Origin: Flavobacterium crocinum
GTDB taxonomy: Bacteria > Bacteroidota > Bacteroidia > Flavobacteriales > Flavobacteriaceae
Reading direction: 5' to 3'
Length of the DNA: 64,000 bases
NCBI RefSeq assembly: GCF_003122385.1
Contig: NZ_CP029255.1
Coordinates: 4,278,001-4,342,000, forward strand
Shown here: piece by piece, positions 15,705 to 34,500 of the stretch
Layout of the letters: each line of letters starts with the position of its first letter
How positions within the stretch are numbered: position 1 is the stretch's first letter
Notes under the pieces: generated by a model
What the model was told of the DNA's origin: nothing
The model's database searches: none
The model's input: only the letters and a program-made list of their open reading frames with translations
Position numbers and translations under genes: made by a program

Positions 15705-16355
15705 TTAGTTAAAAATAATTGTGTGATCTTTTTCTACTCTCAACAGAGAATTAGATTTTTTTGCTGTAAAATTCTTTGCTTCGGAACGACTTACATTTCC
15801 TTTATACTGCATTACAAAATTGACATCATTCTCACTCGAAGTAAGTACTCCGTCTTTATAATAACTCGCCGTGCCTTTTCCCGTAAAACTGACTTTATAA
15901 TTTTCCCCATTTTCCGAAACTTTAAATGTGCCGCTGGTTGGTTTTATACTGACACCATTAGTTACCGACATACCGCCTTTTTCTGCATTAATGTTTTTCC
16001 CTAATAATGATTGTCCCCATTTTGTAAAAGTATAAGCCGTTGCTTCAGAATATCCGCCAAAACTGTAATCGCCCTTTGCTAAATTATTTTTTAATGAAGA
16101 AAACAATTCGAAGTACACTACTGCTCCATCTTCTTTATCCGAAATGGATTTTGATCGTAACGAAAAATCGATATTATAAGCATTTCCCCTTACACCATAA
16201 TTTTCAAGGTATCCCTGTGATAATTCTACCGTCTGGCTTCCAATTTTCAGATAACCCTTGTTTGCATTAGCATCCTGATCACTTTCATTATCACTTGAAC
16301 AAGATGATAATAAAGTAATGAAAACCAGCATTATTATTTTAAAACTATTATTCAT
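15705..16355 (-). CDS. Lipoprotein of unknown function
   Basis: This 216-residue protein begins with a lipoprotein signal (lipobox LLSSC, Cys19) and a short Ser/Asp/Asn-rich linker. The remainder is strand-rich with repeated patterns such as KGYLKIGSQTVEL, AVVYFELFSS and YKVSFTGKGTASYY. This resembles small outer-membrane-anchored beta-sandwich lipoproteins of Bacteroidota, but I do not recognise a family. It lies just downstream of the giant pectinase gene on the same strand with a 90-bp gap, so read-through is possible. Confidence 0.75.
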   Translation of the reverse strand: MNNSFKIIMLVFITLLSSCSSDNESDQDANANKGYLKIGSQTVELSQGYLENYGVRGNAYNIDFSLRSKSISDKEDGAVVYFELFSSLKNNLAKGDYSFGGYSEATAYTFTKWGQSLLGKNINAEKGGMSVTNGVSIKPTSGTFKVSENGENYKVSFTGKGTASYYKDGVLTSSENDVNFVMQYKGNVSRSEAKNFTAKKSNSLLRVEKDHTIIFN

Positions 16356-16445: not shown

Positions 16446-19400
16446 TTATTTAACTATAATTCTAGCCGTTTCTCCTGTTTTTAAACTTTTGATAAAGTAA
16501 CTTCCAGAAGCTAAATCAGAGATTGAGATGTCAGTCTCTAAACCAATCACATCTACTTGTTTAACTAAAAGTCCATTCATACTGAAAATAGCCAAACGAT
16601 CCAATTCTGTGCTTGATCTTAAAGTAATCTTGCCACTAGCAACCGTTGGGAAAACTAAAAACTCTCCCAGCTTTTTCCAGCGTCCGTAAACCGTTGCATT
16701 TTCCTTTTGAGTAGTACCAAAACCTGTTACTTCTTTTCCGTATAAAGCATCAGCATACCAGCCTAAGAATCGGTAACCTGTAGCTTGTGCTTCTTCTAAA
16801 ACAAAAGTGGTTCCGGTCTGTACACTTGTTTTATTTGGATTAACGGCTCCAGATGGCAGATTCAAATAAGAAATACTGTAGAAAGTCGGTGGAATTACCT
16901 CATCTTTTTTGTTATTCCCATCAACACCCCAGAAAGCATAAAACGTTTGATTTCCTGTTGCTGTAGCTCCAATTTCTTTAATCGAATTCGGTGTTGTTGC
17001 AGAAGCCGACCATCCGAAGAAAGTATAATCCTTTAAAGTTGGAACAGGTAAAGTCAGTGCAGTACCTTCTGTATATTCAACAGGAGTTAATCCAATTATA
17101 GCTTTGCCATCAATTGAATTCATGTAGCTAATTCCCGATTTTACAACAGGTTTGGGATCTGGTTTATTGTTTCCTCCTTCTCCCCAAAACGCATAAAACG
17201 TTTGATTTCCTGTCGCTGTTGCCGGAATGGTTTTGAGTAATCCTGGTGTAGTTACAGAAGCCGACCAGCCAAAGAAAGTGTACCCTTCCAATTTTGGTAT
17301 TGGCAAATTGGTTACCGCTCCTTCCATAAATTCAGATGGAGATAATGTAATGGCTTTTCCGTCTATCGAATTCACATAATTAATTATTGAAAACTTAGCA
17401 TCTGCTTTTAGCCATCTTGGATCTCCAAGAACTCCGCCTTCCAATGAAGCTTTTGCTAAAGGAGAATTTTTAGAGAAGCTAAAATCTCCCGAAACAGGAT
17501 TTGGAAATGAAAGTGATAATAATCCTAAACTATTAATTGTTTTAACATTAGTTTCAGTAACCGTAACTGTTCCTTTAACAATTTGTGAAGTTACTCCAAC
17601 CAAAAGATTATTATCCAAAACTGCTTTTCCTGCACCAATTGCGTGATTAGAATTGAACATAAAAATCGGTTTTGGATTTTCACGTTCGTCCTGCATGATA
17701 TTGTTTTTAAAGGTATAAGTCGAAGTGTTGCTGTACTGATTATTGATAAACACAAAACCATCCTGGCTTCCCGAATTATGAATGGTATTATTTTCAATCG
17801 CAACATTTAAGCTTTCATTGACCGCATCTTTTTTCTGAAGCATTATAAAACTATTTCCTTTTTTGTAATTAAAAACCGTTGAATTTTTAACCGAAATCGT
17901 ATTTACAATATGTGAATCGGGTTGAATAAAACTCGCGCTTTCTGAAGCCGTTCCATCAATAATACAATTCTCTAAAACTATCTTAGAAATTGGATGATCG
18001 CTCGCACCTTCCGTTACGAATAAGCTTTGTTTAATTCCTTTAATAGAAGCATTTTTTATTTCAAAAGCCGATACTCCAGAACCATTTTTAAACTGAAATA
18101 CATTAGAGTAGGTATTCGTTAAATCAAAATCAACTCCTGAAAAACTGAAACTTCCTGAAAAAATTTCTGCTTGATCAGATAAAAATGAACCTGCAAACAC
18201 TGGCTTTGAATTTTCGTCAGGAACGAAAGTGTATTTATGATTTTTAACCGTAAGTGCTGTACTTGTGGTATAAGTACCACTTGCCATTATAAACTTTGAA
18301 CCATCTTCTGCGGCGTTGTATTTCTCTACAAAATTCTGCGGATTTACATACACATCTAAACTTCCATTTTGTACCGCTGTGATATGATTGACCAAACTAT
18401 TGATATAAACTTCAATATTGGTATAAATTCCGTCAACTGTTTTTAGATTTCCGTCGGCCGCGCTGGCAGGATTTAAACCTTTTTCAGTTTCCCATTTATC
18501 TGGCATTCCATCTCCATCTGTATCTAATGGAGCTTCGCCAGTAGGAAGAACTGGCCATCCTCCAGTTGCCGATGGTGTATCAATATAACCGTTTGTACTT
18601 CCGTTGCCTCCGTTCATAATACTTGCTGTTCCAGAACGTGTATCATCTACCGCTCTTTTGTCAACAGCATCTCTAAAAAGATTGGCTCCAGCATTCTCCA
18701 AAACCAATTGATACGCTTTTGTAGCACTATGCGTTGTTATTTCGCCTGGTGCGTGAGGTGTACTCATTTTTATTGAAGCTTTATCAGCATCGCTTACTGG
18801 AAGCTGACTGCCGTGAAACTGACTGTAAACTCCATATGTCCAGTTATCCTGAGTAGCTCTTTCAGAACCTACCACGTAATTTCCATCCACAAAATATTTA
18901 CCCCAGATGCCGTATAATGGCGAAGTCGTATCTAAACTTCTTCCTGTAGATAAAATTCGTTCTTTGGTAGAATTGGAAGTTCCAGGTCCAGGTTTCCAGT
19001 AATTGTTTACCAGATTCACGTTCATAGCATCTCCGCCATAACAGCTGTTTCCTCCCCAGTTATAGATTACGTTATTACGAATATCAACTAAATCGGTTTT
19101 AGCAAAAATATCATTGGCATATTCTCCTAATCTTGGATTACGGCTATCATGATGCGCTAACAAATTGTGATGGAAAGAAGCATTTTTACCTCCCCAAACA
19201 CCTCCGTAACCGTGAGCTCCTTTTGCATGAACAGAATTTCGAAGACTTTCAGAAATAATACACCACTGAAGCGTAAAATTTTCATTTTGATAAAAAGATA
19301 CACATTCGTCTGTAGACCAGCTCATCGAACAGTGATCGACAATAATGTTCTTTTGAAAACGTCCGCCTAAAGCATCATTTTCTACATCATGGGTATCTCC

Positions 19401-22400
19401 CATTCTAAAACGTAAATAACGCAGGATAATATTATTTCCTCTTACCTTAACGTTGTAATCTTTTAAAGTAATACCTCCGCCCGGTGCTGTTTGTCCGGCA
19501 ATAGTAATATTATCGGTGATGTTTAATTCGCTTTTCAGTTCGATATTTCCAGAGACTTTGAAAACCACAATTCTCGGCCCAGCCTGATTAATGGCTTCAC
19601 GAAGCGAACCTGCTCCGGAATCGTTCAGATTCGTTACATAAATTACTTTTCCACCGCGACCTCCAGTTACGTATTTACCATAACCTTCTGCTCCCGGAAA
19701 TGCAGGAATAGTTTCACTTCCTCCGCCTGTCGCTTCTTTCTTAACTTCGATTTTTCCTTCTCCTGTAAAAAATTCCGGATTCGTTGTTTTGTCGTAAGTT
19801 CCTTCTTTAAATTCTACTCCGTTAACAGTTAATTTTTGTACATTTAAAACAGTATTTAAAGATGCTTTTCCGTTTTCTGTAATAATCAGATTTAAATTGG
19901 AACCAGCCGCTCGTTCATGGCTGAAAACAATATAATTGTCCTGACCAACTTTTATCGTTCCCGAACCAAAAGCATTTGCCGAAGCTCCTTCAATTACAGT
20001 TGGATAATTTAGGGCTGGGAATTTGGTGCTTTTTTGCGTCACGTCCCAAGTTCCGATAAACTCGCTGTTATCTCCTTTCAACAATAAAGTTCCTGTATTC
20101 GCATTCACTCCCTGACCTGTATTTAAAGGAGAAACAATTCCATTTCCTGAAACTGGTCCGCTTAAAGTCAATATGGTTTGATTAGCAATGCCTGAGATCA
20201 TTTCGAATTTTACATTACCGGAAACAATCATTGGTGCTTCTAAAGTCATTCCTGCACCGCTTGTATTATAATAAACTCTTGTACCGTCTTTGAAAGTTAG
20301 ATTTCCTGTCGATTTATGAGCGCCTCTTAATCGAAGTGTCCCTGCACCTGAAAAAGTCATATCGGCTGGAAAAACGGTTGCAGTTGTTTCTATTTCTTTA
20401 GTACAAGAAACAGTTTTACCTGCAGCAGGCATTTCGGCAGGACTAAAGTTGGCTGCATTATCCCAGTTTTTATTTACAGCTGCTGTAAAATCATAATCGA
20501 AACTGCCTGGAGGAATCACTTCGTCTGGTTTATTATTCCCCGCTGTTCCCCAGTAAGCATATACCGTTTGATTTCCTGTCGCTGTCGCTGCAATTTCTTT
20601 AAGTGTGTTTGGAACTGTAGCAGAAGCTGACCATCCGTAGAAAGTGTAACCATTTAAAGTCGGTACAGGTAAAGTTAAGGCTGTTCCCTCTGTATATTCG
20701 ACAGGAGTTAGTCCGGCTATAGCTTTTCCATCAATCGAATTTAAATAAGAAATAGGAGATTTTACTACTCCACCGTTAATTGTCATGCTGATGCTACTGA
20801 TTTCGCTCAATCCTCCATATTCATTTGCTGCCTGAATGGTGTAAGTATAAGTTCCCGCTTTTGTGTCCGTATCTGCATAAAGGGCATCTGTTGTAATAGC
20901 TAAGATTTTACCCTCTTTACTGATTACATAACACATCGCATATTTATTTTCATCCCATTTTAAAGTATTCTTGTCAGATACTAAAAGATTAGAAGGTTTT
21001 GTAACTTGTTCCACTATCGTGCGCGGATCCCATTTATCAGTTCCGCTTAATACATTTTCTATAGTATATTCGTCAGCCTGAGCTTTTGTCAAAACTGGAT
21101 TGTAATTTCCTGTTTTTGAAACGCCATCAACAGTAAAGGTATTGGTTCTGTTATCGGTGTTAACAGCAATTCCGTTTCCGTTTACGCTGTTGTATTCTGC
21201 GAAAAGTGCCGGATACGTTCCCATATTTGCCCAACCTAATACATTTGGTTCGTTGATCATTTTAGTATTTAGGTAAACCGCTCTAGGTGCATTCTGCCAC
21301 GGACGGCCTAAATAATAACTTGTAGCTGCAGTGATTGTATTGTTATTAAAAATATAACCGTATTGCGTTGCAGCGTCATGATTTGGTGCTACGATATAAC
21401 CAGAAGCCACTGAAACCAGTTTACATTCTTCAAACCAATGTGTTCCGCCTCCGCAGATAAAATCCACATCACCTTCAATGGTTGATTTATAATAGAAACT
21501 TCTTTTTCCGCCTGTAACTTGCGTGTCTTGTTTACTTCTTAAACGAACTCCGTTATACACATTTCGATCTCCTGCCGGATTAAGAGCTGGTCTTTGGCCT
21601 GATGTTGTAATTCCGTCTTTATGCTCGATTGTTACATTTTCCATGTATAAATCATTGGCTTCAATAGAAAGAACCGCATTTTTGATTCCCCAGCCCGGAT
21701 TTCCCTGCAGAATTACTTTATCTTTTGATTGTGCCACTAAGGAAACGTTATTTTTTCCTGTTGGAAGTTTCAATACAATATCCTGCGGATTTGTTCCGTC
21801 TCCACCTAAATTATAAGTTCCGTTTGTAATCAGAACTAGAAATCTTGAAGCAGAATTATTTGGTGCCAGATTAAATGCCTCTGCTATAGTTTTGACATAT
21901 TTTTTTGAAGCAATTTGTTCATCCGTAGCATTGGCATCAACAATTAAATCAAAATTACGTTTAACAGGAACCGGTTTTTCCATTGTTTTAAAGGAAAGAG
22001 TCAATGCAGGCCCGTTGTTTCCTGAAAGATCTTTTACAAATCCTGCCGGAATGGTAAACGTATATTGTTTATTATATTCTAATCCGAAATAGCTAAACTT
22101 TACCGTTTTATTGATAAACTCCGCATTTAGATTTTTTCCGTTTAAAACGGCTTGTCCTGTACCAAATTGAACTTGTTCATTATAATTCAAAATGATGTTT
22201 CCATTTGCCCCAACTGAACTTGCTAATTCTGCAGGCAATGAAGATTCTAAAACAGGTGCATTCGTATCAACCACCAAAACCTCATCGGCTTTAATCATCA
22301 AGTTGGAAATAATCGTTGCAGTTACATCAACAGCAGATCCATGTTTTGGTCCGTTACTATTTGGAAACCATCTTAAATAGATCTTTTCTTTTCCTTCTGC

Positions 22401-23732
22401 TTCAGCTGGAAGAGTTCCTCCGATAGATGTAATTGTATTAGTATTTATGGTTGTTAAAGCTGAAACATTCACAAAGTTTACGCCGTCTAATGAATATTGA
22501 AAAGTCCATTCGTCAGCACCATAATAATACCCCAGTAATCCCGATGCCACATTTATGTTTTTATAACCCACTGTAGAAAGTGTAGTCATAAAATAATAGA
22601 AATTCCCTCTTTCGGTATTCCAGACACAAAAACCGTTTTTCCCGCCTCGGTTCTGAAGTCTTACGTTTGGAGCCAATACATTATCGGCAACATTATACGC
22701 CATTAACTGCGGGCGGTTTTCTATTTTAGAATATAATTCCGCTACACGTGGATTCGCATACTGATCGGTTTTGAAAGTCCATCCCGCAATAAAAGTCTGA
22801 TTCGCATAAGTTCCTGTAACCGTTTGGTTCTGATTCATAACTACAGAAGTATTTAACGACGTAGAACCATCAGACCAATTGCTGAATTTCACAATGTCAT
22901 TTTCTACAGCTGTAACCGTAACATTCGTGCCTTTTTCATAAACAGAAAATGCACCGTCTTTTCCCGCAGGAGAAATGGTATAATCTCCCAAGCCAAATGC
23001 TCCATTCACATTTACGGTCAATGAATACGTTTCTAATGTTTCATATTGTGCAATTAAAGTGGCATCTGCCTCAATAGTATAAGTTAATGGGTTTGCAGTC
23101 GAAACCACAACTCCTTTATCATCTACCCATTGTTTGAAGTTATAACCAAAATTTTTGTTTGCTGTTAGCTTAATTTCAGTTCCTTTTACGAAAGTAGTTC
23201 CGGCAGGATTCAGCGTAATCGTTCCTGCTGATGACGGACTAACACTAGTGGTCAGTTTATGCGTTACAGCATTTGGATTATCTGTTACTTTTTCGAAATA
23301 ATCAAGGTTGAATAAATATCCGGTATTGGTTGGATGTTTAAAAAGAAATACCAAATCATAAGTTCCTGTTGTGGGCTGAATTGCCACAGAAAACTTCTTA
23401 TAATCTGTAAAACTTGTACTTCCTGAAACAGTTGCCGTTCCAATTAAAGTTCCTGTATCTGAACCTAATCTCAATTCGATAGTTCCACCTGTTGCTCCCG
23501 CGGCGGCGATATCAAAACGGGTTAAAAATTCAGTAAAATTGACCGCATTAAATTTAATCCAGGTATTGTTTTTAATGTAACCTACGTTTCCGCCTCCCGA
23601 AAGAGAAGCATTGGTTTCGGCTCGTGCTCCGGAAGCCTGATTGAATTTTTCGGCTTCAATTCTCTCAATGGTCTGAGAGTACCCCATTACTGTAAACAGT
23701 ATGAGGAATAGATGAATAAATTGTTTTTTCAT
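16446..23732 (-). CDS. Giant T9SS-exported multidomain pectinase (CBM - CE8 - PL1 - beta-helix - sorting domain)
   Basis: This 2,428-residue protein has, in order: a signal peptide (1-20); a CBM6/35-like sandwich (about 21-152); two bacterial-repeat modules (about 156-310); Ig-like regions; a CE8 pectinesterase (about 590-905) with SKQDTQ, GDVDFICGGG and LGRPWQ; a fibronectin-like linker; an InlB-type repeat (about 992-1067); a strand-rich region (about 1084-1331); a PL1-type pectate lyase (about 1340-1785) with FPGAEGYGKYVTGGRGG, VDHCSMSWSTDE and a Ca-binding DTDGDGMPDKWE; a second beta-helix (about 1790-2112); three more InlB-type repeats (to about 2353); and a C-terminal T9SS sorting domain. 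CE8 would remove methyl esters so that PL1 can cleave polygalacturonate by beta-elimination. It probably acts at the cell surface or is released. It is encoded downstream of, but apart from, the SusCD operon. Confidence 0.9.
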   Translation of the reverse strand: MKKQFIHLFLILFTVMGYSQTIERIEAEKFNQASGARAETNASLSGGGNVGYIKNNTWIKFNAVNFTEFLTRFDIAAAGATGGTIELRLGSDTGTLIGTATVSGSTSFTDYKKFSVAIQPTTGTYDLVFLFKHPTNTGYLFNLDYFEKVTDNPNAVTHKLTTSVSPSSAGTITLNPAGTTFVKGTEIKLTANKNFGYNFKQWVDDKGVVVSTANPLTYTIEADATLIAQYETLETYSLTVNVNGAFGLGDYTISPAGKDGAFSVYEKGTNVTVTAVENDIVKFSNWSDGSTSLNTSVVMNQNQTVTGTYANQTFIAGWTFKTDQYANPRVAELYSKIENRPQLMAYNVADNVLAPNVRLQNRGGKNGFCVWNTERGNFYYFMTTLSTVGYKNINVASGLLGYYYGADEWTFQYSLDGVNFVNVSALTTINTNTITSIGGTLPAEAEGKEKIYLRWFPNSNGPKHGSAVDVTATIISNLMIKADEVLVVDTNAPVLESSLPAELASSVGANGNIILNYNEQVQFGTGQAVLNGKNLNAEFINKTVKFSYFGLEYNKQYTFTIPAGFVKDLSGNNGPALTLSFKTMEKPVPVKRNFDLIVDANATDEQIASKKYVKTIAEAFNLAPNNSASRFLVLITNGTYNLGGDGTNPQDIVLKLPTGKNNVSLVAQSKDKVILQGNPGWGIKNAVLSIEANDLYMENVTIEHKDGITTSGQRPALNPAGDRNVYNGVRLRSKQDTQVTGGKRSFYYKSTIEGDVDFICGGGTHWFEECKLVSVASGYIVAPNHDAATQYGYIFNNNTITAATSYYLGRPWQNAPRAVYLNTKMINEPNVLGWANMGTYPALFAEYNSVNGNGIAVNTDNRTNTFTVDGVSKTGNYNPVLTKAQADEYTIENVLSGTDKWDPRTIVEQVTKPSNLLVSDKNTLKWDENKYAMCYVISKEGKILAITTDALYADTDTKAGTYTYTIQAANEYGGLSEISSISMTINGGVVKSPISYLNSIDGKAIAGLTPVEYTEGTALTLPVPTLNGYTFYGWSASATVPNTLKEIAATATGNQTVYAYWGTAGNNKPDEVIPPGSFDYDFTAAVNKNWDNAANFSPAEMPAAGKTVSCTKEIETTATVFPADMTFSGAGTLRLRGAHKSTGNLTFKDGTRVYYNTSGAGMTLEAPMIVSGNVKFEMISGIANQTILTLSGPVSGNGIVSPLNTGQGVNANTGTLLLKGDNSEFIGTWDVTQKSTKFPALNYPTVIEGASANAFGSGTIKVGQDNYIVFSHERAAGSNLNLIITENGKASLNTVLNVQKLTVNGVEFKEGTYDKTTNPEFFTGEGKIEVKKEATGGGSETIPAFPGAEGYGKYVTGGRGGKVIYVTNLNDSGAGSLREAINQAGPRIVVFKVSGNIELKSELNITDNITIAGQTAPGGGITLKDYNVKVRGNNIILRYLRFRMGDTHDVENDALGGRFQKNIIVDHCSMSWSTDECVSFYQNENFTLQWCIISESLRNSVHAKGAHGYGGVWGGKNASFHHNLLAHHDSRNPRLGEYANDIFAKTDLVDIRNNVIYNWGGNSCYGGDAMNVNLVNNYWKPGPGTSNSTKERILSTGRSLDTTSPLYGIWGKYFVDGNYVVGSERATQDNWTYGVYSQFHGSQLPVSDADKASIKMSTPHAPGEITTHSATKAYQLVLENAGANLFRDAVDKRAVDDTRSGTASIMNGGNGSTNGYIDTPSATGGWPVLPTGEAPLDTDGDGMPDKWETEKGLNPASAADGNLKTVDGIYTNIEVYINSLVNHITAVQNGSLDVYVNPQNFVEKYNAAEDGSKFIMASGTYTTSTALTVKNHKYTFVPDENSKPVFAGSFLSDQAEIFSGSFSFSGVDFDLTNTYSNVFQFKNGSGVSAFEIKNASIKGIKQSLFVTEGASDHPISKIVLENCIIDGTASESASFIQPDSHIVNTISVKNSTVFNYKKGNSFIMLQKKDAVNESLNVAIENNTIHNSGSQDGFVFINNQYSNTSTYTFKNNIMQDERENPKPIFMFNSNHAIGAGKAVLDNNLLVGVTSQIVKGTVTVTETNVKTINSLGLLSLSFPNPVSGDFSFSKNSPLAKASLEGGVLGDPRWLKADAKFSIINYVNSIDGKAITLSPSEFMEGAVTNLPIPKLEGYTFFGWSASVTTPGLLKTIPATATGNQTFYAFWGEGGNNKPDPKPVVKSGISYMNSIDGKAIIGLTPVEYTEGTALTLPVPTLKDYTFFGWSASATTPNSIKEIGATATGNQTFYAFWGVDGNNKKDEVIPPTFYSISYLNLPSGAVNPNKTSVQTGTTFVLEEAQATGYRFLGWYADALYGKEVTGFGTTQKENATVYGRWKKLGEFLVFPTVASGKITLRSSTELDRLAIFSMNGLLVKQVDVIGLETDISISDLASGSYFIKSLKTGETARIIVK

Positions 23733-23923: not shown

Positions 23924-24910
23924 TCACTTCGGTTTCCAATCTTTAAAAATTGCTTTCATTGAATACTCCTTTTTAATTTGTTCCGATGAAAGCTGATGCG
24001 ACCAGCTTACTCTTGCTTCTGTATTAGCTCCTTTTCCTGTTGATTGGTATTCGGCATAAAAAGCGGTCTTTTCTGCTTCAGGTTTTCCCCAATTGTGCCA
24101 ACCCAAAGGTTTTATGTGTGAATCCATTTCACATTTTATAAAAACAGTTCGGGCATAATTTCTCCAAGGCCTTCCTAAGAAATAAGAAGCATCTCCTGAA
24201 TTGGTTGTTAGTTTACAGTTTAGAAATACAAAACCGCATGAATTCGATTCCGGAGTATTTGCGGCAGTGATATAAGAACCTCCTTTTTTAGCGAAGATTT
24301 CACATTGGTCAAATAGGACTGTTGAACCTCCGAAAATGAAATCGGTCGTTCCTTCGATATAACAATTTTTATAGTATTGTCTACTGTTACTTTCTCTTGG
24401 GTATAAAGTATCCTGAAAACCTAAGAACTTACAATTATCAAAAATGATTCGGTCTCCGTCTATTCGTACCGCAACGGCTTGTCCGACTGGGCCTGATGAA
24501 TTTTCAAAAGTGATGTTCTGCGCTTTAAAATCGTTTCCTGTCACAATAAAACTAGCCGATCCTGAAGTTCCAATTGTTCCTCCTGTTCCATTTGATTTTG
24601 AAGCAAAATCATCATAAGTCAGAATCACTTTTTCTTTGCTTTCTCCAATCAGAGTAATGTGATTTTTATCTAAAGGCAATTCCAGCTTTTCTTTGTAAAT
24701 GCCGTTTTTGATAAAGATTGTGGTCTCCGTTGTTTTCAAAGAGGCAACCGAATTAAATGCCTCCTGAACCGTTTTAAAATCTCCCGTTCCATTTGCATCC
24801 ACTACAATATCATATTTAGATTTCGCTTCGTCTGTTTTAATCCTATTAGAATTTCCATCTAAAGAAAAATGGACAAAGAAAACTACCGTTGTTAGAAGAT
24901 TTAGAATCAT
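23924..24910 (-). CDS. Pectinesterase (CE8)
   Basis: This 328-residue protein is a right-handed beta-helix pectin methylesterase. Family motifs are intact: GTGDFKTVQEAF (41-52), GQAVAVRIDGDR (Gln144), GFQDTLY (Gln166, Asp167 acid/base), TTDFIFGG (Asp190 nucleophile) and FLGRPWR (Arg247). It removes methyl esters from galacturonan. A hydrophobic N-terminus (MILNLLTTVVFFVHFSLDG) serves as signal peptide or anchor, suggesting periplasmic action. It is the last gene of the operon, 8 bp after the GH28 gene. Confidence 0.92.
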   Translation of the reverse strand: MILNLLTTVVFFVHFSLDGNSNRIKTDEAKSKYDIVVDANGTGDFKTVQEAFNSVASLKTTETTIFIKNGIYKEKLELPLDKNHITLIGESKEKVILTYDDFASKSNGTGGTIGTSGSASFIVTGNDFKAQNITFENSSGPVGQAVAVRIDGDRIIFDNCKFLGFQDTLYPRESNSRQYYKNCYIEGTTDFIFGGSTVLFDQCEIFAKKGGSYITAANTPESNSCGFVFLNCKLTTNSGDASYFLGRPWRNYARTVFIKCEMDSHIKPLGWHNWGKPEAEKTAFYAEYQSTGKGANTEARVSWSHQLSSEQIKKEYSMKAIFKDWKPK

Positions 24911-24918
24911 AGTTTTTT

Positions 24919-26601
24919 TTAATTAATCTTCACTTCATTTTTAACCGCTTCCAGGACTTTTACATCTTTATCCCAAATCATTTTTCTGCCTTCGCTATTT
25001 AATGTAATATCCTTTGTAGCTGTTCCGCCAACCCAGAACATTTGATTTTCTCCGGTCGATTTAAAGCCCTCAATATTTACATTCTGACTGTTCGAAAAAC
25101 TAACCGCAATTCCCGGTTTATCCAATCTTAAATCCAAACCTTTGAATTCGATTTTACTGGTATAATTCATCTGAATGCCAACATCTGAACGAATAATCAT
25201 ATTCTCGAACACAATACCTTCAACAGGCATTTCCGGAATTCCCATAATTTTCATTGCCTGAGAAGCTCCGTTTACATAAATGTTTTTGAAATACATATTT
25301 TTGAATGCAGGTGTTTCTTCAGAAACGGGCTCTTTTGCCACTGCTACTTCGCCTGTCTCTTTATCTTCTGTTAATGATTTTCCGAAATAATACAAATTGA
25401 AGTTGATGGCATCTGTTGGAATATTGTTCATTCGGATGTCTTCCATCCAGATATTCTCTACGACTCCGCCACGTCCTCGAACCGATTTAAAACGAAGTCC
25501 GCAGTCTGTTCCGTTAAACGTCAGGTTTTTGGCATAAATATTTTTAACTCCGCCCGACATTTCACTTCCAATGGTAAATCCACCGTGTGCGTGATACACA
25601 ACACAATCTGTAATGACGAACAATTCTGTTGGTTTTCCTCGGTCTCTGCCTTCTTTGTCTTTTCCTGATTTAATACAAATCGCATCGTCTCCTACGTCAA
25701 AACGGCAATTGGTTACCGATCCGATTCTACAGGATTCTAAATCCAGTCCATCGCCATTTTGAGAATACCATGGATTACGAATCGTCAAATTGCGCAAAGT
25801 AAGATGTTCACACATTAACGGATTGACATTCCAAGCAGGAGAATTCTGAAATGTAACACCGTCTAAAAGCAGTTTTTTACAATTCACAAAATTGACCATA
25901 ACGGGACGAAGCGCTTCTTTATAAGGCTCCATATTTTCTACGGTTTGTTTTTTAGGCAGTTTGTCTTTTTCTTCATTCCCCAAATAAGCTCCTTTTGACG
26001 GATACCAGATTTTACCGTCTTTGGATAAAACACCACCCGATTTTACCAGTTCATCCCATTGCCCGGCAGTCATTTTTCCAATTTTGACTGGTCGCCATTT
26101 AGCCCCATTTCCATCAAAAATACCTTCTCCGGTAATGGCAATATTTTCCAGATTAATTCCCATAATAGGCGATTCACAGCGAATGACTTTACTTCCTTCA
26201 AAATAAGATTCAATCAGTTTGTATTGTTTTAAATCACTTGTAAAAGAAACAAATGCACCATTTTGAGTATGGAGATTTACATTGCTTTTCATTTTTATCG
26301 GCCCCGTTGTCCATAAACCAGCCGGAATTAAAACAACACCTCCGCCAGATTCTGAACATTTGCTGATCGCATCGTTAATGGCTTTGGTACACAATGCTTC
26401 AGTATTTGGAACTGCGCCAAAATCGATAATATTTAAAGTGTCTTTTTTAAAAGTCGGAATCTGTATTTCAGGCATTTTGAACGGAATCTTCAAAGCGGAA
26501 CTTTTTTCAGTAACATTTGAAGCTACTTTCTTTTGACTCACACAAGACAAGGCAGTAAAAAGAAATACTGTTATCAAAAGTCTATTTTTTATTTTTATCA
26601 T
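24919..26601 (-). CDS. GH28 polygalacturonase-type lipoprotein
   Basis: This 560-residue right-handed beta-helix hydrolase carries a lipobox (TALSC, Cys20). The GH28 catalytic signatures are visible: NGDGLD (282-287), VGDDAI with Asp305/Asp306, HAHGGFTIGSE with His339, and LRFKS with Arg370 and Lys372. It would hydrolyse galacturonan or related pectic backbones. An insertion near 170-230 relative to fungal enzymes is common in bacterial exo-acting members, so exo-polygalacturonase or a rhamnogalacturonan-specific activity is possible. It sits between GH105 and CE8 genes with short spacers of 24 and 8 bp. Confidence 0.9.
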   Translation of the reverse strand: MIKIKNRLLITVFLFTALSCVSQKKVASNVTEKSSALKIPFKMPEIQIPTFKKDTLNIIDFGAVPNTEALCTKAINDAISKCSESGGGVVLIPAGLWTTGPIKMKSNVNLHTQNGAFVSFTSDLKQYKLIESYFEGSKVIRCESPIMGINLENIAITGEGIFDGNGAKWRPVKIGKMTAGQWDELVKSGGVLSKDGKIWYPSKGAYLGNEEKDKLPKKQTVENMEPYKEALRPVMVNFVNCKKLLLDGVTFQNSPAWNVNPLMCEHLTLRNLTIRNPWYSQNGDGLDLESCRIGSVTNCRFDVGDDAICIKSGKDKEGRDRGKPTELFVITDCVVYHAHGGFTIGSEMSGGVKNIYAKNLTFNGTDCGLRFKSVRGRGGVVENIWMEDIRMNNIPTDAINFNLYYFGKSLTEDKETGEVAVAKEPVSEETPAFKNMYFKNIYVNGASQAMKIMGIPEMPVEGIVFENMIIRSDVGIQMNYTSKIEFKGLDLRLDKPGIAVSFSNSQNVNIEGFKSTGENQMFWVGGTATKDITLNSEGRKMIWDKDVKVLEAVKNEVKIN

Positions 26602-26625: not shown

Positions 26626-27828
26626 TTATTTTTTGTCTAAAACTTTTTGCAATTCGATACCTGCCATAATGAAAGGTCCAACAGCTTTTGCATCGTCATC
26701 TCTGATAGGTTCCGAAATATAATATTCAAATGAGCCATCTCGGTCTTTGGGATTTTTCCCTCCTAATCCGGCTACGGCACAGCATTTTGTTATAGAAACA
26801 GTTCCGTCCAGGTTTTCTTTGATGAACTCTTTCTGAATTCCGTTAAAACCAATTCTAGCCGACTTCAGAAATTTTTCTCCTACATACCCTTTGTTATATG
26901 CTTTCGCGAAAGCATACACAAACATGGCTGAACAAGTTGATTCCAGATAATTTCCTTTTCGTTCCGGCTGATCCATAACCTGCCACCAAACTCCTATTTT
27001 TTTATCCTGAGCTTTTAGAACAGCTCCATAAACTTTTTGAAGAATTTTTATTAAATCTTTCCGTTTTGGATGATTCTCAGGGACAAAATCCAAAATATCA
27101 ACCAATGCCATACAGTACCAGCCTTGCGCACGCCCCCAAACATGCGAGGAAGTTCCTGTTTTTTTATTCGCCCAAAACTGAACTTTTTTTTCATCGTAAC
27201 CATGAAAGTTTAAACCTGTTTTAGGTTCATAAGTATGTTTCTGAATTAACTCTGCCTGTAAAATAGCGTCATCAATCGCCTTCGGATCATTAAAAACTAA
27301 TCCGTATTGCGCTGAAAAAGGATCAGCCATATAAACACCGTCAAGCCACATCTGCCACGGGTAACTTTTCTTATGCCAATAACCGCCGTCTGAATTTCTT
27401 GGGTGTCTTTCCAATTGTTTATGAAGCATATCCAGTGCTGTTTTATAGCGCTCATCTTTGGTTTTAGTATAAATCTCAAAAAGTATTTTTCCTGAATTGA
27501 TTAAATCCAAACTGTATTTCTCGAGTTCGTAACCTCCACCTATTTTTCCGTCTTTATCAATAAGCTGTTCGGCATACGAAATTCCGTAATCCCAATATTT
27601 TTGTTCTTTCGTATAATCAAATAATTGCTGATTCGCCAATGTTACCAGACCATTCGTATAATTCCATTTAGGGAATTTCACGCCATCCAGATAAACCGGA
27701 TTTGGAATACGCTTTTGATCGGAATAGGCCATTTTCTTAGCCCATTCAATTGGTGTTATTGGTGATTGTCCAAATGAAACCAAATGAACGAACAAAGCGA
27801 GAAAACAATATTTTATTTTATATATCAT
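26626..27828 (-). CDS. GH105 unsaturated rhamnogalacturonyl/galacturonyl hydrolase
   Basis: This 400-residue protein has a signal peptide (1-20, SFGQ) and an (alpha/alpha)6 barrel. WLDGVYMADP holds the expected catalytic Asp163, and GRAQGWYCMAL and KCCAVAGLGG are typical GH105 segments. The enzyme hydrates and removes the unsaturated uronic acid from oligosaccharides made by pectate or rhamnogalacturonan lyases, so it processes the products of the PL1 module in the giant enzyme. It begins about 65 bp after a terminator-like hairpin inside the operon. Confidence 0.9.
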   Translation of the reverse strand: MIYKIKYCFLALFVHLVSFGQSPITPIEWAKKMAYSDQKRIPNPVYLDGVKFPKWNYTNGLVTLANQQLFDYTKEQKYWDYGISYAEQLIDKDGKIGGGYELEKYSLDLINSGKILFEIYTKTKDERYKTALDMLHKQLERHPRNSDGGYWHKKSYPWQMWLDGVYMADPFSAQYGLVFNDPKAIDDAILQAELIQKHTYEPKTGLNFHGYDEKKVQFWANKKTGTSSHVWGRAQGWYCMALVDILDFVPENHPKRKDLIKILQKVYGAVLKAQDKKIGVWWQVMDQPERKGNYLESTCSAMFVYAFAKAYNKGYVGEKFLKSARIGFNGIQKEFIKENLDGTVSITKCCAVAGLGGKNPKDRDGSFEYYISEPIRDDDAKAVGPFIMAGIELQKVLDKK

Positions 27829-27973: not shown

Positions 27974-29623
27974 TTATGGCAACCATCTTGTATCTCCTAC
28001 TCTGTTGGTCACAATTGGAGAATTAGAATCTTTAATCATCAGATTTCCATTGGCCGGATCGACAAATAAATTCTGTGCACTGATTCCTAATTCTGTTCCT
28101 TGAATAGCAGAAGCTCCAAGCAGATAATTTGTTGTTGTATAGTTATTACCGTATGTAGAAGTTGTATTGGCTCCAATAGCCTGAATCACTTTTCCGCACG
28201 CCGAAGCTAACAACACATTTTTAAAGATCAGCGTAGATCCAACAGCAGACGGAATATTAATTAATGCTCTGTTATAAGCATAATCGTAAATCGTAATATT
28301 TTGATATTCCAAATGAATTGGATAAGCTGATGTACCGTAATCCCAAAGATTTTTAAAGTTTCGGTTTTGATCTGTTGTCTGATAGTAATCTCTCATGAAA
28401 GTACAATTCGAGAAAACCGCTTTTTTCACATTATCAGCTCCGGCAGAACCAAAAGCAAATGTTCCGTACGGCCCGGTGTGACCTCCAACCTGATCAAACG
28501 TACAATAACTCATATCAAAATTTCCGATTTCTTTGTATTTACCATTCCCCTGATGTCTCCAGAAACCACGTTTGAAATAATTGAAAACACAGTTATAGAA
28601 AGTAATCTCATCAATTTTCCAGGCTGTTCCACTGTTAAAGAAATAACTCGCATCGATAGTTTGATAGAAACGGATATTCTCAAAAGCAAGAGAAGACAAA
28701 TAAGAACCTTCGGCAATATTCCAGTTTCCGTTCATTTCAATCTGAGGGCGTTCTCCCTGCGTTCCTCCAGTCAGTTTAAATCCTTTTGAGATAGTAAACG
28801 GAGTAATTTTAAACAAGGAACCTGCTTCAAGGAAATATTCTGTTCCTTCCGGAATAGTTGGATCGTCATTATTGGTTCTCAATAAAGCATCTAGATCCAT
28901 TCCTTTTGTTACAATAATAGTAGAAGCTGAAGGCCCTGCAGAACGGAAAGAAACCTGATTGTATGGTTTATCATAACGTCTCGGTTTAATATTATCGAAA
29001 ATGTTTAAGTTGTATAAAGTATTCTTTTCTAAACCGGTAACGGTAGCTTCTCCTTTAGACATTTCATCGGCTGTTAATTTACGTCCGATAGCTGGAAGCT
29101 CTAATGACTGTGCCGGCTGTACCGAAATACTGTCTACAGGATTTTTTGAAGAAACCGCCCAGGTTACTGTAACATCTGTTTCCGTGATATTTACTCTTTC
29201 TACTGCATTTAAAATAGGATCAAAAGGCGGACGATCTTCTGTCAGGGCATTTGTGTAAGCCCATTGTGAATTGTGTGCTCCGTTTACATGGTTTGATCTT
29301 ACCCTGATATAAAACTGGGTTTTATACGGAATATCATCCATTAAAATCTGCGTATCTGTTGTCGTGTACGATTTGTACAAACTTTTGTAATAATTGTCTA
29401 AATGTAATTCTACTGTATAAGACGCCGCGTCGTTTACTTTGTACCAAACCACAGCAATTGAATTACTTTTTACCAAAGGCGCTGCTAGCACAAATTTTGG
29501 CTGAAATAAATCTTCTACAGGTTTATAGCGAAATTCGTCATTGTCGCAGGATTTTAGTATTTCTCCAAAAACAATCAATCCGATAAGGGATAAAATATAA
29601 ATTAGTTTTTTTGAATTTTTCAT
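27974..29623 (-). CDS. Beta-helix surface lipoprotein of the pectin locus
   Basis: This 549-residue protein has a lipobox (LKSC, Cys26), then two fibronectin-III-like domains (about 45-235). A right-handed beta-helix follows (about 240-545), with many short repeats of the form F-x-N-C-x-F and a C-terminal GDTRWLP. The C-terminal part resembles the second beta-helix of the giant pectinase, which ends GDPRWLK. I recall this plan as DUF4957/DUF5123-type proteins in pectin loci. It may be a surface glycan-binding protein in the SusE/F position or a lyase; no catalytic residues can be assigned. The gene follows susD by 11 bp. Confidence 0.75.
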   Translation of the reverse strand: MKNSKKLIYILSLIGLIVFGEILKSCDNDEFRYKPVEDLFQPKFVLAAPLVKSNSIAVVWYKVNDAASYTVELHLDNYYKSLYKSYTTTDTQILMDDIPYKTQFYIRVRSNHVNGAHNSQWAYTNALTEDRPPFDPILNAVERVNITETDVTVTWAVSSKNPVDSISVQPAQSLELPAIGRKLTADEMSKGEATVTGLEKNTLYNLNIFDNIKPRRYDKPYNQVSFRSAGPSASTIIVTKGMDLDALLRTNNDDPTIPEGTEYFLEAGSLFKITPFTISKGFKLTGGTQGERPQIEMNGNWNIAEGSYLSSLAFENIRFYQTIDASYFFNSGTAWKIDEITFYNCVFNYFKRGFWRHQGNGKYKEIGNFDMSYCTFDQVGGHTGPYGTFAFGSAGADNVKKAVFSNCTFMRDYYQTTDQNRNFKNLWDYGTSAYPIHLEYQNITIYDYAYNRALINIPSAVGSTLIFKNVLLASACGKVIQAIGANTTSTYGNNYTTTNYLLGASAIQGTELGISAQNLFVDPANGNLMIKDSNSPIVTNRVGDTRWLP

Positions 29624-29634
29624 GATTGATTCAA

Positions 29635-31530
29635 TTAAAAATTAAAACCATAATAATTTTGAATGGCTCCGCGATGATCTGTAATCACCTTTGATGGATA
29701 AGGACATAAATAACGCAACGGATTATTTGGTGAAACCGATGAAGCGTTATTGTAGTTAATGAACCCTCTAAAACTCCATTTGATTTCGTTTATCGGTTCG
29801 TAACTCGCCGTATCATTATTTAAGGAATACCAGCTAATCGCAAATGGATGTACGGTATAACCTGCAGGATTTGCCGTCAGGATTTGATTAATTCCCTGTA
29901 TATCCAGAATTTTTCTGCCTGAATTAGCAGGATCATTAACCAATTTATAGTAGACATTGCCCGGAACCTGATCTATTCCCGGAACATACGCTCCGTTTGC
30001 TACACGTCCCCAGTTGAATAATTTGTAATATTGGTTGTAAACCACTTCACTATATTTATTCCAGCGTGCTAAATCGAATTTACGTTTACTTTCCCCTCCA
30101 AATTCCCATTTACGTTCGTCCATAATCGCTTTAAAGAATAACTCTGGAGAAGATTGAGCGTTTACATAATTATCAACTTTCATTCCCCAATCTGCTTGTG
30201 CGAAAGCTCTTCTTCTTACACGTCTCAGACATTCTTTAGCATCTTCACGTGGGCCAAAACGTTCGTTTACAGCTTCGGCATACATTAACAATACATCGGC
30301 AAAACGCATCCAGGAATAATTAACTCCCGTTCCTTTTTCGCTAGTGCCCCCTAAAGGACTGGTCATGTATAATTTAGACCATTTTCCAACGGCTAAACGA
30401 GCTATCCCCAAACGCATTTCCTGATTTAGATTTAAATCGTAACCATAAGGTGCACAAGTAACATCTCTTCTCAAATCTTTATTATCAAATGAAAAAAGGT
30501 ATTCCCCGCATAAACTTAGACTTCCCGAAGCAGATCCGTAAGGATGATTCCCGGACGCAATAGGAATTCCGGCTAAATAACCGTATTCTCCGGAAGAGTT
30601 TTTCAACATGGCGATAGAGAAAATCACATCATCATTAACCGGAGTTTCCCAATTGTTTTGTTTGATCCAGAATTCTCTGAAACCTAATTTCAAATCGTGT
30701 TGTTTTCCCTGAATTACTTTGTCTAAATACTGAATAGCAATGTCATAATATTGCTCATAGTTTTTTCCTCTTTCCATGTGACCAATGTTCGCTGGATTAT
30801 TTTCGTCCGGGCGAAGTGTCCATCCACCACGAGTTAAAGCCAATAAACCAATTAATCCCTGATTGAAACTTCTTGATGCACGTTCTACGCCATAGTCCAA
30901 TTCACTGGCATTTTTCATCAAAGGTTCAACTGACTTTAAATCGTCAATTAGGAATTCTAAAATGGTATTTCTATCCGTAACTCCCACAGCAAAATTTTCA
31001 TCTCCTGTTGAAGATTTAGTTCTAAAAACAACATCTCCCCAGATACGAATCATATCCAGATAAACCATTGCACGAATAGTTTTTACTTCACCATACATTT
31101 GCATTACGTTAGAAGGCTGTGTTTTTGGATCTGTTTTGTATAAATCTGAGCTTTCAATTCCTTCAATAACGTCATTCGCCATATTGATAATTTTGTACAT
31201 GGCACTCCAGGTTGAGTTTAACGTTGTCCAATAAGGTTTTGGATCATAACAGGCAATGTCTGAACCATTTCCGTTTACTGTATTGGTTCCAACACCAGCC
31301 ATTTCTACATCGGTATTGGTATTAAAAACAAAAGCAATACGGTTGGAATAGGCATCTTCTGCAAGCATCAGGGTATAAACTCCTGCAACAGCAGACTGCA
31401 TGTCTTTTTCTGATTTAAAAACTTCTGCCTGAGTAAAACCCGATCCAGGCTGTACATCTAAATAATCTTCGCAGGCTGTAAAAGTCAGCGCAAAAATCAA
31501 CAGAAAACTTAATACTATATTTTTCATCAT
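29635..31530 (-). CDS. SusD/RagB-family starch-binding-like lipoprotein (pectin locus)
   Basis: This 631-residue protein has a lipobox (TFTAC, Cys20) followed by EDYLDVQPGSGFT, the usual SusD opening. It also has the RagB/SusD region with TPR-like helices, such as TIRAMVYLDMIRIWGDVV, and the C-terminal segment WSFRGFINYNN. SusD proteins cap the partner SusC transporter and capture oligosaccharides at the surface. It lies 20 bp downstream of susC in the same operon. The surrounding enzymes point to pectin-derived oligosaccharides. Confidence 0.93.
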   Translation of the reverse strand: MMKNIVLSFLLIFALTFTACEDYLDVQPGSGFTQAEVFKSEKDMQSAVAGVYTLMLAEDAYSNRIAFVFNTNTDVEMAGVGTNTVNGNGSDIACYDPKPYWTTLNSTWSAMYKIINMANDVIEGIESSDLYKTDPKTQPSNVMQMYGEVKTIRAMVYLDMIRIWGDVVFRTKSSTGDENFAVGVTDRNTILEFLIDDLKSVEPLMKNASELDYGVERASRSFNQGLIGLLALTRGGWTLRPDENNPANIGHMERGKNYEQYYDIAIQYLDKVIQGKQHDLKLGFREFWIKQNNWETPVNDDVIFSIAMLKNSSGEYGYLAGIPIASGNHPYGSASGSLSLCGEYLFSFDNKDLRRDVTCAPYGYDLNLNQEMRLGIARLAVGKWSKLYMTSPLGGTSEKGTGVNYSWMRFADVLLMYAEAVNERFGPREDAKECLRRVRRRAFAQADWGMKVDNYVNAQSSPELFFKAIMDERKWEFGGESKRKFDLARWNKYSEVVYNQYYKLFNWGRVANGAYVPGIDQVPGNVYYKLVNDPANSGRKILDIQGINQILTANPAGYTVHPFAISWYSLNNDTASYEPINEIKWSFRGFINYNNASSVSPNNPLRYLCPYPSKVITDHRGAIQNYYGFNF

Positions 31531-31550: not shown

Positions 31551-34500
31551 TTAAAATGACAGCTGTACTCCAAAAGCGTAGTTACGCGTTCTTGGATAAG
31601 CGTTATAATCAATGTTTGGTGTAAGACCTGTTTCTAAATTGATATCCGGATCATATCCTGAATAGTTTGTCCACACAAATAAGTTACTTCCTGTAGCATA
31701 CAATCTTACTCGGCTTAATCCTATTGCTTTACTTTGTTGTTTTGGAATTGTGTAACCAATACTCAGCGTATTTAATCTTAAGAAAGAACCATCTTCAACT
31801 GCATAAGACATTGCAATTGGACGACCAATACTTACCGGATTCCACATCGTAGCATTTTCGTTTTGTTTTGCCAGTAATTCAGGAGAATAACGAAGATCAT
31901 TCCCCATATCGTCATAATTTCTCCAGCGTTTATCCAATCCTACTTCCATTCCAAAATTGTTTTGGTTGTTTTGGAAGAAAGAAGTCATCATAATCTTATT
32001 AGCATTGTACACATCAAAACCATACATGAAATTGAAGAATGCTGTTAAATCGAAGTTTTTCCAAACGGCATTCACACCAAATCCACCAGAGAAATCAGGA
32101 TTTGTATCTCCGATCACTTTTCTGTCTTTATCTCCAATTACATAGCTGTTTGGGTCTGAAGGATCAGTTGGAGTTAATTTTTTAAACTTTGCACTTCCCG
32201 GAACCGGCTCTCCTGAAAGGTTTTTTGAGTTGGCAACTCCTTCTTTTAGTTTCCAAACTCTGGTTACAGCATCAAAAGATTCGAAATCATCCATTGTATA
32301 GAATCCGTCATTTACGAAACCGTAAATCAAACCTTTTGTTCCGCCGACATATGCACGGTAATCATCGTCATTTAATAACTGCGTTCCTGCCCAGCCCGAA
32401 CTTAAAATCCATTCCTGTTCTCCGCTTGCCAGTTTGTCAATTTTATTTTTGTTGTAACCAATGTTGAAAGTCAGATCAACCTGAAAGTCTTTTTTTCTAA
32501 TTACACTTCCGTTAAGCGCCAATTCAACACCTTTATTAGAAGTCTGTCCAACATTCGTCATCATTTTGGTAAAACCGGAAACCGAAGCGATATCAGAAGG
32601 CACCAATAAATCTTTTACTTTATTGTAATAGAAATCAAGTGTTCCTGTTAATCTTTCTTTGAAGAAACCAAAATCAAGACCTGCGTTAGCTGTATAAGTT
32701 GTCTCCCACTTTACGTTTGGATTGTTCAGATACTGACTGTTGTAAAAATTATAATAATATTGATTTTGCTCTCCCCAGCCTATAGAACGATCTCTGGAAA
32801 CACCATAATATTTCGCATATAAATCGGCTTTAATTCTGTCATTTCCTGAAGCTCCATAACTCAAACGAAGTTTAAGATTAGAAACAGTCTGACTTTCCTT
32901 TAAGAAACTTTCGTTTGAAATTCTCCAGGCAAAAGCTCCTGCAGGGAAAACGCCCCATCTATTATCCGGACCAAACTTTGTAGAACCATCGGTACGAACC
33001 GTGAATGTAAATAAGTAACGATCATCATAACCGTAATTGGCTCTTCCAAAAAAGGAAGCGATTCTGTTTGGAGATTCAGCCAATGAACCATTGTCGAAAG
33101 GAGTTCCTAATGCCAAGTTATCCAAAGCTTTTGGGCCCGAAATATCGTCAGGAAAATAACGGGAACGGTAAAATTTAGCCTTAGATTCCTGATCTTTGAT
33201 CTCTTGTCCGATCATCAACTGAAAATCGTGACGCTCTTTTACTTTGAATCCGTAGTTTAATACGTTATTCAACTGCCAGCGTGGCGATTGTGTCATCGAC
33301 CAATATACTACTGGTAGATTGTTATTATCGGTTGCCGTACGCGTATCGGTTCCCCAAAAACGTCCGTCTTCTGCATATTTGTATTCGTAACCAAAAGAAG
33401 AACGTAATGTCAGTCCTTTTTGGATTGTCCAAGTCAAGGCTCCTTGTGTATTAAAAATTCTCGTAATACGTTTACGGTAATTCTTTTCTGCTTCTTCCAA
33501 CGGGTTAAAACGAGGTTTTGTTTGATAGTCTTCCGGATCAAAATAAGTGTTGTCATCCGGTAAAGTCATATAATCTTCCAAACCTCCTGTTGGTGCTTCG
33601 CGTAAAGCTCTAAGGAGACTCACGCCATCTGTACCAGAACCATCAATAGTCTGATTGGTTAAACGCGTCTGATATTCGAACAAAAGATTATCCGTCAGCT
33701 TGGTATTCATAATCAGGTAAACATAATTCTGACGCATTCCTGTTCCTACTAAAGCTCCAGGCTGATCCTGATTTACAAACGTGAATTTGAATTTTGTTTT
33801 TTCGCTTCCGCCGTTCACATTGATATCAGTATATCTGGCAATTGGGTTGCTTCCGAAAATTTCGTCCTGCCAGTCTGTACCTTTGTTTCCTTTATAAATA
33901 TATAATTCGTTAGCTTTTCCATACTGATTATAAAATGCGGTTGGATTAGAACTTCCTTTACGCGCATTCTCATACTGCAACATCACAAACTCATACGGAT
34001 CCATTACATCCAAATGATTGGCAAGCGTTTTAATCTGGGTATAATTATGAATGTTTACCTGAACTTTTCCTGCTTTTGGCACTTTAGTAGTAACAATAAT
34101 AACTCCGTTTGCTCCTCGCGCACCATAAACCGCTGTTGACGCCGCGTCTTTTAAAACTTCTACCGATTCAATATCAGTTGGCGGAATATCATTTAGATTC
34201 GCAACTTCAAATCCATCGACTAAAATCAAAGGCGAATTGTCTTCTGTAATAGATCCTCCACCACGAATTCTAATCTTTACCTCTGCACCCGGCGAACCAT
34301 CAACAGTAGTAACCTGAACTCCGGGAAGTCTTCCTGTCAAAGCTTCGGCCACGTTAGCAGTTGGCACTTTTGCCAGTTCCGTTCCTTTTATACTGGCAAC
34401 GGCACCTGTTAAGTTTTTACGTTTTTGTGTACCGTAACCAATAACGACAACTTCATTCAATTCACTGTTCGATTCTTTCATCTGAACTGTAATTCCGGAA

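Follow-up and report, generated by a model that had tools for sequence, protein, structure and literature searches.

The window analysed here is a stretch of 64,000 nucleotides from the soil bacterium Flavobacterium crocinum (contig NZ_CP029255.1, positions 4,278,001 to 4,342,000), and its central feature is a giant pectinase gene at 16446-23732, a single open frame on the minus strand that begins with ATG and encodes 2428 amino acids. All the genes and modules located below are on this same strand. A small lipoprotein of 216 residues is encoded 90 bp downstream of the giant (15705..16355), its lipobox Cys19 being invariant in 20 aligned rows. Upstream lie a second, stand-alone CE8 of 328 residues (23924..24910; Pfam PF01095, 261 bits), a GH28 (24919..26601; PF00295), an unsaturated uronidase of the GH88/GH105 type (26626..27828; PF07470, 351 bits), which we take to belong to GH105, a DUF5123 lipoprotein (27974..29623; Pfam DUF5123 and fn3, both over the cut-off) that is likely a surface glycan-binding protein, SusD (29635..31530; PF07980, 82.6 bits), SusC (31551..34772; NCBIfam TIGR04056, 855 bits, and Pfam Plug) and a hybrid two-component regulator, HTCS (37195..41529; Pfam Reg_prop, HisKA, HATPase_c, Response_reg and HTH_18). 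A small protein of no family is found between SusC and HTCS. Judged by its gene content, the locus around the giant is a utilisation locus of the homogalacturonan type. It resembles the PUL BT4108-4124 of Bacteroides thetaiotaomicron, which has SusC/D, a capture protein, PL1_2, GH28, GH105 and HTCS (PMC8002723), and a DUF5123 protein among BT4109-4114 (PMC10434189) parallels the DUF5123 lipoprotein of the window. The esterases, lyases and binder of the B. thetaiotaomicron locus are listed on separate genes, however, and no fused giant is mentioned in the excerpts of that source (PMC8002723).

The giant begins with a signal peptide (residues 1-19; 23676..23732), read by eye from the sequence, and a CBM6 (26-147; 23292..23657; PF03422, 83.5 bits for a cut-off of 28.9), kin of the solved chains 2v4v, 1gmm and 1w9s. 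Two divergent InlB repeats follow (158-312; 22797..23261), matched by PF18998 (Flg_new_2) in three stretches, the best at 161-231; the division into two is our own and recurs in relatives. Residues 313-488 (22269..22796) form an unnamed module, delimited here and labelled N300, for which Pfam and NCBIfam gave no match. It also occurs in proteins adjoining the giant in F. palustre and F. pokkalii, and a Pfam scan of the F. palustre protein gave no CE8 match. A Big_5 Ig-like domain (489-583; 21984..22268; PF13205, 45.5 bits) precedes the CE8 pectin methylesterase module (612-896; 21045..21899; PF01095, 83.2 bits for a cut-off of 27), from which a short linker domain leads to an InlB repeat (1009-1059; 20556..20708; PF09479, Flg_new, the best of five stretches). 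Next come a module at about 1070-1337 (19722..20525), beta-rich and labelled PATR-like by us, with no Pfam match and with a TIGR02601 score (12.9 bits) below the cut-off of 19.85, and the PL1 module with a C-terminal Asp-rich Ca motif (1342-1752; 18477..19709; 245 bits against PfPL1, 9buj). The chain is completed by a second beta-helix composed of DUF4957 and DUF5123 (1786-2109; 17406..18377), three InlB repeats (2130-2355; 16668..17345), placed from module matches in relatives, and a C-terminal T9SS sorting domain, Por_Secre_tail (2360-2425; 16458..16655; PF18962). This last domain is barely over its cut-off (27.5 bits versus 27); together with the signal peptide seen by eye, it makes the giant a predicted T9SS-secreted bifunctional pectinase. 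A preliminary description of this DNA had listed a CBM, a sorting domain and at least four InlB repeats, all of which were found by Pfam. Our own division gives about six InlB repeats, four classical and two divergent; the Pfam stretches (five Flg_new and three Flg_new_2) may overlap. The beta-rich module (about 1072-1335) and the unnamed module at 313-488 had no place in that description.

Both catalytic modules look competent. In CE8, residues Q713, Q735, D736, D757, R810 and W812 align with the active site of Dickeya PemA (Gln/Gln/Asp/Asp/Arg/Trp, which we take to be numbered 153, 177, 178, 199, 267 and 269), and all six are invariant in the aligned rows (19 of 19). The substitution in PDB entry 2nsp (D178A) falls at the Asp of QDT in this alignment. 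That the region-II Gln might be replaced by Asn in the giant was considered and rejected, as the PDB alignment puts Q713 at that position. The module is divergent: it scores 83 bits against PF01095, whereas the neighbouring stand-alone CE8 reaches 261. Among solved structures, the PL1 module is nearest to PfPL1 (9buj, PL1_2), whose alignment spans 1343-1752 of the giant. The NCBIfam PelZ equivalog NF041900 matches 1342-1716 with 137.6 bits, far under its cut-off of 840; on this score the module is related to PelZ without being a PelZ orthologue. All 33 aligned rows have both R1531 and R1534, and R1531 aligns with residue R220 of the PfPL1 chain. Arg220 of PfPL1 has been proposed to take the C5 proton, with Ca-assisted substrate binding (PMC11229556); the second catalytic residue named in that paper, Arg235, has no match to the chain numbering of the 9buj alignment. 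The Asp-rich Ca motif is likewise conserved at the C-terminal end of the giant's PL1, so that PfPL1 and this module have both the catalytic Arg and the Ca motif in common, whereas CE8, DUF4957-DUF5123 and a T9SS domain are not described for PfPL1 in the portion of the paper covered (PMC11229556). A loss of catalytic residues in CE8 or PL1, which the preliminary description had named as a possible refutation, was thus sought by alignment and none was seen: CE8 keeps its six residues and PL1 its base Arg.

The second beta-helix, which the same description had placed at about 1790-2112 with no assigned activity, corresponds to DUF4957 and DUF5123, closed by the motif GDPRWLK (2103-2109). A scan of the module by itself puts both families over their Pfam cut-offs (39.8 and 37.5 bits for 30.8 and 35.1, respectively); a scan of the whole protein lists DUF4957 over its cut-off at 1819-1955, and not DUF5123. 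In an alignment of the enzyme-borne module, each family matches all 12 rows at E<=1; for the helix of the DUF5123 lipoprotein (27974-29623), DUF5123 matches 12 of 12 rows and DUF4957 one of 12, at the same threshold. The profiles of the two helices match each other with a probability of 93% (E 3.5e-7, 22% identity). Because of the common DUF5123 and this profile match, the second helix and the lipoprotein are, by sequence comparison, kin, and the likeness suspected at first is real, although distant.

An AF2 model of the second helix, 349 residues long, gives a beta-helix with a mean pLDDT of 71.2; confidence is good up to about residue 170, moderate from there to about 230, and poor beyond. 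Foldseek places this model closest to 5gkd, a PL6 alginate lyase (E 2.6e-4, TMq 0.52), and many of the other matches listed are lyases or polygalacturonases. One might thus consider a third catalytic module, for instance a lyase or hydrolase acting on another pectin linkage, that would make the protein trifunctional; the right-handed beta-helix fold would suit such a role. However, 5gkd is the only one of the 194 matches listed to pass E 0.001, and its superposition is poor (rmsd 7.8). No lyase model was found by Pfam at E<=1 and no PL6 chain by a PDB sequence search at E<=10, the best PDB sequence match being an unconvincing one to a 173-residue hypothetical protein (E 0.0065); a PDB sequence search with the lipoprotein at 27974-29623 was also without a convincing solved relative. 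Moreover, 12 diverse members of the family, aligned and compared by eye, have in common the C-terminal GDxRW and a few scattered columns, and no conserved set of Lys, Arg, Asp or Glu beyond GDxRW was seen among them. The family also occurs in PUL lipoproteins, in which DUF5123 proteins are placed directly after SusD. Taken together, these observations make a third enzyme unlikely.

The helix is most likely, on comparative grounds, a non-catalytic homogalacturonan-binding module. Three observations lead us there. First, BT4112 is described as a surface protein that binds homogalacturonan in B. thetaiotaomicron (PMC8002723), and a DUF5123 protein is listed among BT4109-4114 (PMC10434189); by elimination between these two papers, BT4112 would be that DUF5123 protein. 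Second, one sampled Flavobacterium genome (G138) shows a natural swap: the N-terminus of the CE8 protein in this locus consists of DUF4957-DUF5123, whereas that of its relatives has CBM6; in G138 DUF5123 is over its cut-off (38.5 bits), whereas DUF4957, at 26.2 bits, is under the cut-off of 30.8. Third, there is the lack of a common set of catalytic-looking residues in the alignment described above. Beta-helices are often enzymes, and DUF5123 matches generic beta-helix proteins too, which is a counterweight to the binding reading. The helix and the InlB repeats could also be a mere rigid spacer or export aid that binds no glycan: the helix adjoins spacer repeats near the C-terminus, and split PL1 enzymes (see below) manage without it. 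This we hold to be unlikely, although less so than a third activity, since a plain spacer accounts neither for the exchange of the helix for CBM6 in G138 nor for its kinship with capture lipoproteins. Extending the binding role to the whole family, one might tentatively speculate that DUF4957-DUF5123 beta-helices bind homogalacturonan in general, serving in pectin loci as capture lipoproteins and in secreted pectinases as a large CBM, and that in the fused lineage the helix is paired with a dedicated small outer-membrane lipoprotein that couples the enzyme to the uptake complex; this broader proposal is possible rather than probable.

The DUF4957 and DUF5123 families occur in pectin loci of Bacteroidota from the gut as well as from soil, and we asked how well DUF5123 marks such loci. 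Among the counted lipoprotein loci with DUF5123 above the cut-off, 4 of 7 have CE8, PL1 or GH28 in the surrounding stretch, versus 2 of 20 SusD controls (Fisher test, p = 0.024, with small numbers and related genomes, loci and controls alike coming from 7 genomes). The three loci without such a gene are look-alike trios of SusC, SusD and a lipoprotein within the genus. Outside the 7 stand three orthologues of the F. crocinum lipoprotein, two giants and the over-cut-off matches of one genome (G299), namely a frame of 1,992 residues and a frame of 571 residues on another contig; a 21st SusD window, with no pectinase, is outside the count of 20. In the fetched windows around DUF5123 matches below the cut-off, a pectinase was detected in 0 of 13. 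The searches were made by phmmer with the CE8, PL1, GH28 and GH105-like proteins of the F. crocinum locus as queries, so that other families would be missed. The 1,992-residue protein, with multiple matches partly over the DUF5123 cut-off, is by eye a generic beta-helix protein. As a marker of pectin loci, DUF5123 is thus clean only in part, with 4 of 7 loci and with matches to generic beta-helices as well.

Among 299 sampled Flavobacterium genomes, the full-length form of the giant is found in 9, its own included, at 82-100% identity; G050 has a fused form of 2,167 residues without the beta-rich module, and G031 the C-terminal half of a giant, with broken frames on a short contig. The profile of the enzyme-borne helix matches 13 of the 299: these 11 genomes, the swapped protein of G138 and a frame of 527 residues in G149. 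Among 29 named Flavobacterium loci, collected with the CE8 profile, the fused enzyme is present in 19, in frames of 2,352-2,457 residues, with three C-terminal InlB repeats in 15 and two in 4. With full-length copies in 9 of 299 genomes and the fusion shared by 19 of the 29 loci, chance or artefact was rejected as an explanation of the giant. In the other 10 loci CE8 is on a protein of its own, encoded in frames of 1,074-1,097 residues; within the fetched stretch, 7 of them also have a separate CBM6-InlB-PL1 protein of 861-1,162 residues and 6 a CBM6-InlB-GH28 protein of 761-776 residues, three loci having both. In the split PL1 proteins of these named loci, DUF4957-DUF5123 was not detected. 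The split form bears on whether the fusion is processive, as the preliminary description proposed, with one pectin chain threading through CE8 and on to PL1 before it is let go. Processivity is reported for bacterial CE8 enzymes, and the giant combines two likely binding modules with both activities in a single chain; against this, relatives have the same modules on separate proteins, so that physical coupling is not essential. Processive action along the fused chain seems improbable to us, on a par with a third catalytic activity or marginally below it.

Trees of the two halves of the fusion give different pictures of its origin. On the CE8 side, the fused forms (21 rows) make one clade nested in split forms, with an SH-aLRT of 96, in a tree obtained by a quick search in which some rows overrun the module, as matches of the same frame were merged, and columns less than 30% filled were dropped. 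In the PL1 tree, a single clade of the 19 fused PL1s is rejected (p-AU 3e-60); without F. panacis a single fused clade is not rejected (p = 0.085), with the set picked after the tree had been seen. Rows of 460 residues or more (L057, L062, L064, L067 and L117) were left out of both PL1 trees, and L113 additionally from the one used for the AU test. One clean origin of the fusion, with which the CE8 tree agrees, is hence not what the PL1 tree gives. As the PL1 tree fits only without F. panacis, some exchange of PL1 modules is likely, and we think it likely from these trees that the fusion arose once, with later module exchange.

The small lipoprotein downstream follows the fused form closely. 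At E 1e-10 it is found in 11 of the 299 Flavobacterium genomes, the 10 with a fused gene and G031, and in 0 of the remaining 288. In the named loci it comes after the enzyme in 19 of 19 fused cases, and none of the 10 split loci was seen to have it. In a second set of genomes it is present in all the fused ones (11 of 11), whereas three of the 10 split genomes give only weak partial matches, with 30-31% identity and E values of about 1e-4. It has no Pfam family; its AF2 model is an all-beta fold (mean pLDDT 75.8) without a match at E 0.001 among PDB structures. All the fused genes may descend from one event, and linkage alone could therefore explain this pattern. Even between the deepest branches of the fused form, however, the lipoprotein retains 50-57% identity, which suggests that it has been kept for use, and we infer that it may be a dedicated partner of the fused enzyme.

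The preliminary description had presented CE8 and PL1 on one chain as a possibly undescribed combination. In this respect it does not stand: CE8-PL1-Doc cellulosomal proteins are already listed for Ruminococcus flavefaciens (PMC4081043), and there are three further layouts in the order of the window (Flavobacteriales). Of the early claims, the two competent-looking activities and the helix kinship survive, the novelty of the pairing falls, and processivity is unsupported. Like the giant, the R. flavefaciens proteins carry CE8, PL1 and a module for attachment to a complex on one chain; in contrast, a dockerin takes the place of the T9SS domain, and DUF4957-DUF5123, CBM6 and InlB are not listed in the table entries of that source (PMC4081043). 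Of 296 genomes of the order, at least 7 encode CE8 and PL1 on a single frame. Three of these frames are giants, a pair are compact CE8-CBM6-PL1 proteins, another is a PL1-CE8 protein with the order reversed (747 residues), and the last is a PL1...CE8 giant of 2,573 residues (L160), whose PL1 matches PF00544. When three further big frames (L159, L160 and L161) were scanned with Pfam, L160 alone had both modules. Another compact CE8+PL1 protein occurs in the F. salmonis genome. Given these several layouts, the pairing probably arose several times.

The compact proteins of other Flavobacterium (L162 and L163, and L051, without a CBM6 match) resemble the giant in having both activities on a single chain and, in L162 and L051, a T9SS domain over the cut-off. 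They differ in their shorter frames (1,129-1,380 residues), in a CE8 nearer to the stand-alone type, in a PL1 on a separate branch and in giving no DUF4957-DUF5123 match. Compact CE8-PL1 is present in 5 of 10 split genomes (one copy broken by a stop) versus 0 of 11 fused ones (Fisher test, p = 0.012); as the genomes are related, the idea that it stands in for the giant is weak. Another parallel in design is CelAly (GH5-PL31), also a flavobacterial chain with two activities and unfamiliar binding modules, for which binding of two substrates by an unknown domain is reported in the abstract; it acts, however, on alginate and cellulose instead of pectin, with different catalytic families (PMC13235733). 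In the open-licence PMC literature, as far as its accessible text goes, we found no description of the DUF4957-DUF5123 form of the enzyme, and the giant is not described in the excerpts of studies on F. johnsoniae grown on pectin (PMC8056085), on a Gramella pectin PUL (PMC5306329) or in PMC12758843. In the parts of that literature searched, a single paper names DUF4957 or DUF5123, in gene tables as far as its excerpts show. What is new here is thus the enzyme-borne DUF4957-DUF5123, the split-gene relatives of CE8 and PL1, and the small lipoprotein restricted to the fusion.

We propose that the giant is a T9SS-exported, probably surface-attached pectinase with two activities, belonging to a homogalacturonan utilisation locus and using CBM6 and the helix as pectin anchors, a reading to which we assign a probability of roughly two in three. 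The protein would be exported and attached to the cell surface through the T9SS, and CBM6 and the DUF4957-DUF5123 helix would anchor it to cell-wall pectin, with the InlB repeats presumably serving as spacers. CE8 would strip methyl groups, leaving stretches that PL1 on the same chain could bind, and the adjacent PL1 would cleave these de-esterified stretches by beta-elimination. The DUF5123 lipoprotein may then capture the oligosaccharides for import by SusC/D, and CE8, GH28 and the GH88/105-type uronidase would complete the breakdown of what is imported.

The full architecture of the giant is also found in strain CI04 of F. johnsoniae, a genetically tractable species; its locus is one of the 19 fused named ones. 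The fused and split relatives offer a natural comparison between coupled and separate de-esterification and cleavage. Two features give the locus its lasting interest, a DUF4957-DUF5123 module borne by an enzyme and a lipoprotein specific to the fusion. With this module on an enzyme, a relative in which it replaces CBM6 and relatives with split genes, the role of an uncharacterised module becomes directly testable.

The fused 2,428-residue pectinase is accompanied in the window by a 216-residue lipoprotein (15705-16355) of no known family. This lipoprotein was found in 11 of the 299 sampled Flavobacterium genomes, each with either the fused enzyme or just the C-terminal half of it, and nowhere else in the sample. 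Within the fused enzyme itself, the CE8 domain is preceded by a module of about 175 residues (residues 313-488; window 22269-22796) to which no Pfam family corresponds. The module recurs in F. palustre, in a CBM6-InlB-InlB protein that adjoins the giant enzyme (L074:16241-20929) and has putative Ig repeats; a scan of that protein gave no CE8 match. It is also present in F. pokkalii, in a protein that likewise adjoins the giant but whose frame is truncated at the contig end.

The F. crocinum genome possesses a second pectin locus, outside the window (contig 4352-4378 kb; L151, L154), which encodes SusC, SusD, a DUF5123 lipoprotein, a GH105-like enzyme, two CE8, a GH28 and a PL1 that is 64-66% identical to the PL1 of the giant. 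Trios of SusC, SusD and DUF5123 lipoprotein also occur at three other loci (L111, L112, L116), around which no CE8, PL1, GH28 or GH105-like genes were detected in a 20-kb stretch.

Further designs with CE8 and PL1 on one chain exist within the order (loci L162, L163, L051, L164 and L160), one of them with reversed module order; these other designs include a giant of 2,573 residues, whose PL1 is unlike that of the window enzyme. In F. panacis (L078), the PL1 module of the fused enzyme clusters with PL1s from relatives in which CE8 and PL1 lie on separate proteins, and this grouping points to module exchange.
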